DNA of 64,000 nucleotides from Planctomycetota bacterium. GTDB taxonomy: Bacteria; Planctomycetota; Phycisphaerae; Sedimentisphaerales; Anaerohalosphaeraceae. The DNA is taken from contig VRUI01000018.1 of the NCBI GenBank assembly GCA_019456225.1, positions 1-64,000 on the forward strand, read 5' to 3'. The notes under the pieces are model-generated. The model had not been told where the DNA came from and did no database searches. It saw nothing but the letters and a program-made list of their open reading frames with translations. The position numbers and the translations under genes were made by a program. Of this stretch, positions 1,887 to 4,268 are shown piece after piece (within the stretch, counting starts at the first letter, position 1; each line of letters begins with the position of its first letter).

Positions 1887-2104
1887 CCTTACCGCGACGA
1901 GCGAGCCCATGTTGTCAACTAAAGGCACATTGAGCTTAATTCGGTAATCTATAGTTAAGGTGTTGCCCCTTTTGGCCGAATTATTAGTTGAAAGTGTCTA
2001 TTTTTAACGTAAAAATCCGTATTTGAACCGTTTTATTGGATTTACCCGCATTTAGCGGCTATTTTTTAGGACTCAAGTTAGCAATTATCAAAGGAGCAGT
2101 AATT

Positions 2105-2827
2105 ATGAAGTCAAAGTTTGTTTGGTTTTTAATGGCGGTATTGTTTGTTGTAATTATCAGCGGTTGCCACAGGGTCGCCCAGGACACCACAACCTTTAAC
2201 CAGTACTATAGGACAGCTTTGAAAGTGAGTACGTCTGCCGATGTCATCTCGATGATCGGAGCAGAAGGCGAAGCTCGCATACTAGGCGAAAACGCTGTCG
2301 CTTCATGCGGCGAAGCGAAAAAAGGCTCTGTGATCTGGTTTAACGCGGTAGCGTTTGACGATGACACCTCCAGGGCTTTTCGCAAGTACGCATTTGTCGC
2401 AAACCCTAAGGCCAAGGGCTTCGGCATGGCCAAAACGCAGACAATGCGATTTGACGCCAAGCTGGTTATCAACATCGACGTACTCAACGAACCGCATGCC
2501 AATGACAATGCCAGAAAGATCGCGGTCCTGAAATCATTGCTCAAAGATTTCAGCGGCGACTTAAAACCGCTGGAAAAAGACAGCAGTGTATTAAAAAGTG
2601 GTTCGCTGATGGTTAAGCAGTTGCTAAAAGGTCTCATTTATAAGCTTGAAGCTTCACCTGCTCGTGCCGGCGATCTGGAAAAATTTACCGGCATGGATTT
2701 TGACCACATGACCCTGGATAAGGGAAAAGCCAGAATGGTAATCGATAACGGCGTTGTAGAGTTGAAAGTAATGACAGGTTCTACAATTAAAAACTTCAAC
2801 AAAAAGCTGGACGTGCTAAGCATGTAG
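2105..2827 (+). CDS. Predicted lipoprotein of unknown function
   Basis: The best start is the ATG at 2105, directly behind AAAGGAG; an in-frame start further upstream lacks a site. The 240-residue product begins with a lysine-containing n-region, a hydrophobic stretch (residues 5-19) and a lipobox ISGC, so it should be lipid-modified and anchored in a membrane. The rest is a soluble domain with no motif I recognise. It contains an Ala/Gly-rich early segment and alternating hydrophobic strands near the C-terminus (MVIDNGVVELKVM). It ends 30 bases before a rho-independent terminator, so it appears to be a single-gene unit. Confidence 0.75.
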   Translation: MKSKFVWFLMAVLFVVIISGCHRVAQDTTTFNQYYRTALKVSTSADVISMIGAEGEARILGENAVASCGEAKKGSVIWFNAVAFDDDTSRAFRKYAFVANPKAKGFGMAKTQTMRFDAKLVINIDVLNEPHANDNARKIAVLKSLLKDFSGDLKPLEKDSSVLKSGSLMVKQLLKGLIYKLEASPARAGDLEKFTGMDFDHMTLDKGKARMVIDNGVVELKVMTGSTIKNFNKKLDVLSM

Positions 2828-2914: not shown

Positions 2915-2944
2915 AAAAAAGGGACACATCTTTCGATATGCCCC
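2915..2944 (-). terminator. Rho-independent terminator ending the structured RNA candidate
   Basis: Read on the minus strand, GGGGCATATC pairs with GATGTGTCCC over 10 positions (two G-U pairs) around a GAAA tetraloop, followed by six T residues. The two wobble pairs would be mismatches on the plus strand, so the element is oriented leftward. Confidence 0.85.
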
Positions 2945-3110
2945 TTTTTCGAAGCTATCAGACAGTTCCACTGAAGATTTAAACCTTACAGCCAGCCTCT
3001 TCTCTTTGGCTGGACGGCCAGTTTAATATCAGCATAGCATCCTTGCCGAAACTGTCTGAAACGGGTTCCTTTTCCCGTGCAAGCTTCTTAACCGGAGATT
3101 ATCATCCGTA
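2945..3110 (-). ncRNA. Candidate structured non-coding RNA downstream of the nrdR/ATP-cone pair
   Basis: Between the ATP-cone gene and the leftward terminator, the minus strand can fold extensively. GAAGCT (3087-3082) pairs with AGCTTC (2956-2951). Inside that lie a hairpin ACGGG/CCCGT (3078-3074 with 3065-3061) and a perfect 10-bp stem TCAGACAGTT/AACTGTCTGA (3059-3050 with 2967-2958), giving a three-way junction. The long arm continues with a CTGA/TCAG plus TTAAAC/GTTTAA stem and an apical CCAGCC/GGCTGG hairpin (3013-3008 with 2997-2992). A CGGA/TCCG hairpin lies 5'. No open frame explains this conservation of pairing. It does not match riboswitch, 6S, SRP or tmRNA signatures that I can recall. 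It could be a free RNA or a structured 3' UTR of the upstream operon. Confidence 0.6.
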
Positions 3111-3160: not shown

Positions 3161-3718
3161 CTAACCTGCTATAATTTGCAGTTGTTTATAGGCCTGGAGC
3201 ATTGAGTCCATGTCGGCTATTACAAGCTGCTTTATAAGCCGTCTGGACACTCTCAGCATCTCCAGCATCAGGATCTTTTCTTCCACCGACGATGCGATGA
3301 CTCTCGCCATCTGCCTGCTTAATCCGTTTTTCTTAACCAGGTCTTCTGTAATACAAGACTTATCCCACTGGCATGGGGCATAATAACAACCCTTTTTCTC
3401 ACACTGCCGGTCATCGTAAACCTCGACACGTTTACGTTTTAGCTTTCGCGTAAGCCGGTGCTCGGAAAGCAACTTAGCCGCTTCGTAATAACCGGTCGAG
3501 CTAAGCACCGATTCGATCATCAAGTGAACTTCATCACTTGTGATGGCGTGAGCGGTTTTTTCACGATAAAGATGATAGGTGACCGCTTCGGCAAACTGTT
3601 CGGCTGCATAGACGCTGGGCTTGCCGGCAAGAGCAAGAGCATTATTAAATGTCCCGATCACTTTCGTATGCAGATATTCTTCTACACTTCCGTCGCATTT
3701 AATTATTTTAAGATGCAT
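3161..3718 (-). CDS. ATP-cone domain protein with a cysteine cluster, function unknown
   Basis: I place the start at the ATG at 3718 because GGAAGG lies eight bases upstream; the frame also extends to a TTG at 3754 without a site. The 185-residue protein begins with an ATP-cone (starting IIKCDGSVEEY; roughly residues 3-90), the nucleotide-sensing domain of ribonucleotide reductases and NrdR. The second half has four Cys within 17 residues (C-x4-C-x4-C-x5-C type spacing), possibly a metal site, then a helical region. It follows nrdR by about 60 bases in the same orientation and is probably cotranscribed. That suggests a nucleotide-responsive partner or regulator related to deoxynucleotide supply. 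It is too short to be a reductase, and no reductase gene is in the window. Confidence 0.7.
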   Translation of the reverse strand: MHLKIIKCDGSVEEYLHTKVIGTFNNALALAGKPSVYAAEQFAEAVTYHLYREKTAHAITSDEVHLMIESVLSSTGYYEAAKLLSEHRLTRKLKRKRVEVYDDRQCEKKGCYYAPCQWDKSCITEDLVKKNGLSRQMARVIASSVEEKILMLEMLRVSRRLIKQLVIADMDSMLQAYKQLQIIAG

Positions 3719-3776
3719 CAGTTTTGCCTTCCATTGCAATAACGTCTGATCCAAACTTCATTTTTTAGCAAGCCCC

Positions 3777-4268
3777 TTAATCGTTAAAGAGACTGGGCTG
3801 GTCATGAGGGCCGGACTCTTCGATTACCTGGGTGACCTCATTGATTAATTCGCCGGCGTCTTTGAAATCCCTGTAAACGCTGGCAAATCTGATATATGCC
3901 ACTTTATCAACTGCCCGCAGATGTTTCATTACGCTTTCACCTATGAAACGCGACAAAACTTCCTTGTCGAAATTCTTGAAAATATCTTCTTCGACCTTGT
4001 CGGCGACTTCCTGTATCTGGTCGACAGAGACAGGCCTTTTGTAACAGGCTTTCTGAAGACCGGATATAAGTTTGTCTCTGTCGTAGGGCAGCCTTGATCC
4101 GTCCTTCTTGATCACATTAAGCTTAAAACCCTCTCCGATCTTCTCGTAGGTCGTAAACCGTTTTTCACATTTCATGCAAGCGCGACGCCGGCGTATGACC
4201 CGCCCGCCTTCACTCGAGCGTGAGTCAATCACCTTATCTTTATCTTCTTTGCAAAAAGGGCATCTCAA
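3777..4268 (-). CDS. nrdR: Transcriptional repressor NrdR
   Basis: The 163-residue product has the NrdR layout: an N-terminal zinc ribbon (CPFC near residue 3 and CMKC near residue 31), an Arg-rich RRRR segment, then an ATP-cone from about residue 49 (VIKKDGSRLPYDRDKL). NrdR binds ATP/dATP and represses ribonucleotide reductase genes. The start is a TTG at 4268: it gives the canonical M-R-C-P-F-C beginning and has AGGTG about seven bases upstream, while the nearby ATG at 4263 is out of frame. A candidate NrdR box lies 80-96 bases upstream. The downstream neighbour is another ATP-cone protein. Confidence 0.96.
   Translation of the reverse strand: MRCPFCKEDKDKVIDSRSSEGGRVIRRRRACMKCEKRFTTYEKIGEGFKLNVIKKDGSRLPYDRDKLISGLQKACYKRPVSVDQIQEVADKVEEDIFKNFDKEVLSRFIGESVMKHLRAVDKVAYIRFASVYRDFKDAGELINEVTQVIEESGPHDQPSLFND

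Follow-up and report, generated by a model that had tools for sequence, protein, structure and literature searches.

At the 3' end of an operon made of nrdR and an ATP-cone gene, in the Sedimentisphaerales (an order within the Phycisphaerae, Planctomycetota), we find a conserved structured RNA with hairpin loops that match CsrA binding sites. The reading that we prefer, with a probability of roughly 0.58, is that this part of the operon transcript binds CsrA and acts as a decoy that titrates it. The RNA was found in the window, by which we mean the whole stretch of 64,000 nt that we analysed, from contig VRUI01000018.1 of a Planctomycetota bacterium (GCA_019456225.1, here labelled G000).

In the window, nrdR, which encodes the transcriptional repressor of ribonucleotide reductase genes (3777..4268, minus strand; Pfam Zn_ribbon_NrdR and ATP-cone), is followed by a gene for an ATP-cone domain protein (3161..3754, minus strand; Pfam ATP-cone, 31.6 bits), directly upstream of the RNA. 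This second ATP-cone protein has no zinc-ribbon match, and its gene adjoins nrdR across much of the order. The conserved core of the RNA, which matches our models R1 and R2, occupies 2958..3078 on the minus strand, starts 82 nt after the stop codon of the ATP-cone gene and consists of hairpin A, the long stem P3, the inner hairpin C and a variable arm. Hairpin A (ACGGG-AAAAGGAA-CCCGU, 3061..3078, minus strand) carries the first A(N)GGA site in its loop (GGA at 3069-3067). The long stem P3, which covaries in 33 homologues, is in the window a perfect 10-bp pairing TCAGACAGTT/AACTGTCTGA of 3059-3050 with 2967-2958 (5' strand UCAGACAGUU, 3050..3059; 3' strand AACUGUCUGA, 2958..2967; both on the minus strand). 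Hairpin C (GGC-AAGGAU-GCU, 3036..3047, minus strand) presents the second site as an ANGGAN hexaloop (GGA at 3042-3040), inside which the minimum-energy fold of the window copy adds one more pair. An outer stem, P1 (GAAGCU 3087-3082 with AGCUUC 2956-2951), closes the span 2951..3087 of the minus strand, and the 3' end of the RNA is an intrinsic terminator, as expected of a sponge sRNA: GGGGCATATC-GAAA-GATGTGTCCC-TTTTTT (2915..2951, minus strand), with a GAAA loop that lacks GGA, a U6 run and an end at about 2915.

A sequence-only reading had proposed a structured RNA at this place, either a free sRNA or a regulatory 3' UTR, built from GAAGCT/AGCTTC, ACGGG/CCCGT, a 10-bp stem and a GAAA/T6 terminator; we located all of these on the minus strand where it had put them. 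It had further claimed that there is more pairing than in a simple 3' UTR, and this is borne out by the fold of 2915-3090 (minus strand, 176 nt), whose minimum free energy is -75.7 kcal/mol as compared to -44.1 +/- 3.95 kcal/mol in dinucleotide shuffles (z = -8.0; 0 of 200 shuffles as stable). A riboswitch or a leader of a downstream gene was rejected, since the neighbouring gene beyond the RNA (2036-2827, plus strand) is convergent. A search for tRNA and tmRNA found only a distant tRNA-Gln.

Homologues were found by reading the sequence downstream of ATP-cone orthologues, where the same design recurs in many genomes. The RNA diverges too fast for a nucleotide search, which gave nothing useful; one match in the genome G008 is a 29-nt stretch on another contig and was taken as chance. 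From 17 copies (alignment A1) we built a covariance model, R1, which matches 32 of the 161 genomes of the order at E <= 0.05, with one match per genome. All of these belong to two families, f1 and f2, except one noise-level match in f7. The match to the window copy (E=2.3e-10, 60.9 bits) is partly by construction, as this copy is among the training sequences. Two extra f1 copies (L016 and L027) were recognised in the locus search and again by R2, a refined model made from 33 copies (alignment A2). At every f1 and f2 locus where the genes could be checked (one, L096, is at a contig end), the RNA lies directly behind nrdR or behind nrdR plus the ATP-cone gene, with a gap from stop codon to RNA that ranges from -63 to 148 nt. 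In samples of the class and the phylum, R2 found no convincing copy elsewhere, with scores of at most 28 bits; presence outside the order was rejected, because both R2 and R3 (a model of the f5 version described below) match there at noise level, about 22-28 bits.

The fold is a real, conserved RNA and not a chance 3' UTR. In A2 (33 sequences with a mean pairwise identity of 55%, the window copy being 41-56% identical to the others), standard pairs are found in 90% of cells, and 17 of the 20 pairs show compensatory change on both sides. The covariation score is 0.433 vs 0.209 +/- 0.014 in shuffles, none of which reaches the observed value, and sliding the partner by one base lowers the pairing to 35-45%. 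Since A2 was fitted to the structure model, it leans towards the structure. The plain sequence alignment A1 gives an agreeing picture, with compensatory change at 13 of 18 pairs, as does f1 alone, where the region is non-coding (15 of 20 pairs). Thus the covariation that the sequence-only reading had asked for in relatives is strong, and together with the nrdR linkage and the Rfam result it supports a structured RNA. Its three-way junction survives in part: conservation in relatives extends to the ACGGG hairpin and the 10-bp stem but not to the outer stem P1, and we therefore rejected a P1-closed junction as the conserved design. P3 is followed by a U-run in most f2 copies and in several f1 copies.

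In f2 the ATP-cone frame extends 54-63 nt into the RNA; in f1 it ends before the RNA. Protein coding as the cause of the conservation was rejected, as hairpin A covaries in f1 as well as in f2. At 13 f2 loci (L073, L074, L075, L078, L081, L085-L089 and L093-L095) hairpins A and C also encode a conserved, RLRQPQNGLCP-like C-terminal peptide, so that coding and structural constraints are combined there.

What the sequence-only reading had lacked is a signal of function, and this comes from the conserved A-N-GGA-N hairpin loops. Among the 33 homologues, the loop of hairpin A begins with A in 32, followed by a free base N (C14 G8 T7 A4), a nearly invariant GGA, another free base and then G in 27; the window copy is shifted by one column in this alignment. 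The loop of hairpin C has A in 32 of 33, a free N, GGA in all 33 and a varying next base. ANGGA is found in both loops of 31 homologues and the full ACANGGANGU in hairpin A of 12; the closing pair of the loops is frequently C-G. While hairpin A is an ANGGAN hexaloop in most relatives, it has an 8-nt loop in the window copy, which has only two clear loop sites. In several f1 genomes A(N)GGA occurs in the terminator loop too (GACC-ACGGAT-GGTC, GATC-ACGGAT-GATC). The cores hold 132 ANGGA/AGGA motifs vs 56 +/- 7 in dinucleotide shuffles, and 67 mostly unpaired GGA vs 19.5 +/- 4, although these are related sequences and not 33 independent trials. Hairpins with ANGGA (stem >= 3) number 1.9 per core vs 0.06-0.09 per 120 nt elsewhere, and their density in the RNA exceeds that in its upstream flanks 20- to 80-fold.

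These features can be set beside what has been published on RNA recognition by CsrA/RsmE: the motif is a hairpin that closes an ANGGAN hexaloop, and the SELEX consensus for CsrA is RUACARGGAUGU, in which ACA and GGA are fully conserved (PMC7652899). A CsrA dimer binds two sites that are 10-63 nt apart, with an optimum above 18 nt (PMC7652899), and the GGA-GGA spacing from hairpin A to hairpin C is 25-28 nt in all 33 copies. As far as sequence comparison goes, the loops are this motif at dual-site spacing.

The source genome encodes a CsrA (C124:96415-96570, MLVLSR...VHRKEVY; Pfam 87.6 bits) that has the key RNA-binding residues L4 and R44, numbered after the E. coli sequence, in agreement with the PDB alignments. 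The PDB relatives of this protein include the RsmE-RNA structure 2jpp. Altogether, a CsrA gene was found in 86 of the 98 genomes searched. FliW above the cut-off was found in no f1 or f2 genome searched, with one partial match below the cut-off, and in 12 of 13 f5 genomes. Given the motif with its freedom at N, CsrA in the genome and FliW below the cut-off in f1 and f2, we consider it very likely that the candidate RNA binds CsrA.

The decoy could work as follows. The 3' end of the nrdR / ATP-cone transcript would be a CsrA-binding RNA, in which hairpins A and C would present their A-N-GGA-N loops, 25-28 nt apart, to one CsrA dimer; further sites could come from additional A(N)GGA motifs, which lie in the arm and in some genomes also in the loop of the terminator. 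P3, with the U-run that follows it in many genomes, would end the transcript. Whether cut out of the operon mRNA or still part of it, the RNA would titrate CsrA off its mRNA targets, so that the expression of NrdR, a regulator of nucleotide status, would be linked to the global regulator CsrA. We infer that the RNA is transcribed together with the operon. That titration is its role and that it is released as a separate sRNA are both predictions, to which we give slightly better than even odds.

The main rival is a cis-acting role, given the tight linkage, the missing promoter signal and the f2 coding frame that continues into the RNA. Here, CsrA would bind the 3' UTR and control the stability, processing or termination of the nrdR / ATP-cone mRNA without being titrated. 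The loop evidence applies to this equally well, and the U-run after P3, the linkage to nrdR at every checkable locus and the overlap with the ATP-cone stop region in f2 all agree with it, as does the f5 version, which is found only in genomes where an ATP-cone gene was found. Moreover, no dedicated promoter was found upstream of the RNA (promoter score 7.74 vs 7.58 +/- 0.13, that is, no enrichment). On the other hand, the sites are distant from any start codon, the usual place of CsrA action; the stop-to-RNA gap is variable; and the genome G034 keeps the RNA directly after nrdR with no ATP-cone gene between them. A purely cis role is, in our view, the less probable account, with a chance of around one in four. 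Titration is favoured by the paired dimer sites away from start codons, by the persistence of the RNA where no ATP-cone gene adjoins it, and by precedents among sRNAs (RsmX/Y/Z) as well as parts of mRNAs (flaA, fimAICDHF; PMC4894983). Several observations nevertheless speak against the decoy. A free trans-acting sRNA need not stay linked to nrdR, as this one so tightly is. No promoter signal of its own was seen upstream of the RNA, and in f2 its start overlaps coding sequence. The window copy offers two clear loop sites only, its hairpin A is not the ideal hexaloop, and most of f5 has FliW as well as the RNA. Finally, three genera (g2, g8 and g16) have CsrA and no copy that the covariance models detect, which means that CsrA can do without the RNA.

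These CsrA-bearing relatives would also fit an alternative in which the GGA loops of this conserved structured RNA have a purpose other than CsrA, such as binding another protein, a loop-loop contact or a ribosome-binding site of a small ORF, and so would the stretches conserved outside the loops, GAAACAGAC in some f1 and GCCGATCGAGCAG in f5 copies. However, free N positions next to an unchanging A and GGA, together with the C-G pair that often closes the loops, match recognition by CsrA in particular (PMC7652899), the genome does encode CsrA, and the commonest loops, ACGGA and ATGGA, are poor Shine-Dalgarno sequences; we regard this explanation as unlikely. An ordinary stable 3' UTR plus terminator with no regulatory function would likewise follow an operon and end in a terminator, but the covariation and nearly invariant loops at a mean identity of 55%, as well as the z-score of the fold, make it highly improbable.

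Next, we compared the RNA with known systems. An Rfam covariance-model scan, which the sequence-only reading had named as a check on novelty, found no family that reaches its gathering score, either in the window region or at 20 homologous loci, and this includes CsrB, CsrC, PrrB/RsmZ, RsmY and related families. A known Rfam family was therefore rejected; a permissive scan gave chance-level matches only, and a PyrR-like match (E=0.33) consists of two unrelated hairpins. It follows that there is no detectable homology to RsmX/Y/Z or CsrB/CsrC. If our reading is right, the RNA would work like a Csr/Rsm antagonist. We do not assign it to any Csr/Rsm RNA family, since no Rfam model matches it and its expression and binding are predictions. 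It shares with RsmX, RsmY, RsmZ, CsrB and CsrC the compact size, several A(N)GGA hairpin loops, an intrinsic terminator and a CsrA/RsmA-type protein in the same cell; RsmX/Y/Z are similar to it in length, at about 110-150 nt. Unlike these RNAs of Gammaproteobacteria, the planctomycete RNA has a fixed architecture of two hairpins and a long closing stem with fewer sites, and it is located where the nrdR operon ends, with no promoter of its own seen.

Another likeness is the flaA leader of Campylobacter jejuni, which titrates CsrA next to FliW (PMC4894983). It too is a conserved, mRNA-embedded pair of ANGGA stem-loops with compensatory changes outside the Gammaproteobacteria, at a spacing of 21 nt (here 25-28 nt, within reach of one dimer, in all 33 copies); whereas the flaA element lies in a 5' UTR and in addition represses the translation of its own mRNA (PMC4894983), our RNA is an operon 3' end. 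The Salmonella fimAICDHF leader, as cited in PMC4894983, is a part of an mRNA that titrates CsrA and is itself no target of CsrA regulation; it is a 5' leader unrelated to nrdR, and not a 3' end. FliW, which was suggested as a CsrA antagonist that Planctomycetes may use (PMC4682653), would share with the candidate RNA the effect of counteracting CsrA, but it is a protein.

The literature that we searched (open-licence papers, mostly by title and abstract) holds no CsrA-antagonising RNA in Planctomycetota. One survey put forward that, beyond the Gammaproteobacteria, BarA-UvrY-type systems seldom or never drive the transcription of sRNAs that antagonise CsrA (PMC4682653), and the combination of FliW with an sRNA is left open for any bacterium (PMC7652899). 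How CsrA is controlled outside the Gammaproteobacteria is an open question, and here we see whole families with CsrA, no FliW above the cut-off and a conserved RNA with textbook CsrA loops. We tentatively suggest, at somewhat less than even odds, that this is an independently evolved family of CsrA decoys in Planctomycetota, which at the 3' end of the NrdR operon would wire nucleotide status to global post-transcriptional control, and in f5 would do so alongside FliW. If true, this would extend the CsrA antagonists by a type that is linked to an operon and lies at its 3' end, and it might connect nucleotide metabolism with CsrA.

In family f5, a divergent version follows the ATP-cone gene in all seven genomes whose flank was read. 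Most of the seven have a GGC-ANGGAN-GCC-type hairpin upstream, and then a terminator-like stem, GUCAGGUG ... CACCUGAC (or CACCUGGC), with GC-ANGGAN-G inside it in 7/7 and a U-rich stretch after it in most. With the f5 model R3, only these seven copies score above noise. Judged by its position and design, the f5 RNA is more probably a homologue than an analogue at the same site. Since most of f5 has FliW and the RNA together, a simple anti-correlation of the two was rejected. Genomes without CsrA do not provide a clean loss test. The genus g9 is the only f1 genus with two genomes (G008 and G018) of which neither has a CsrA that we found, and the RNA is absent from both, but this co-absence counts as one event, one of the genomes is only 68% complete, and incomplete genomes blur the remainder.

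Some minor features were seen in and around the RNA. In the f1 loci L014, L023, L046, L051 and L052 the otherwise variable arm contains GAAACAGAC or close variants, a possible further binding site. In the f5 loci L063, L065, L104, L105 and L106 the region that separates hairpin C from the terminator stem's 3' strand contains a conserved stretch, GCCGATCGAGC. The only f3 genome carries, at the place equivalent to that of the RNA, a GGAC-AAGGAC-GUCC hairpin. Finally, positions 2857-2886 of the window form a strong hairpin, AAAACCATCCGG-TTAAA-CCCGGATGGTTTT, flanked by A and T runs, which is likely a bidirectional terminator that separates the RNA from the convergent gene.
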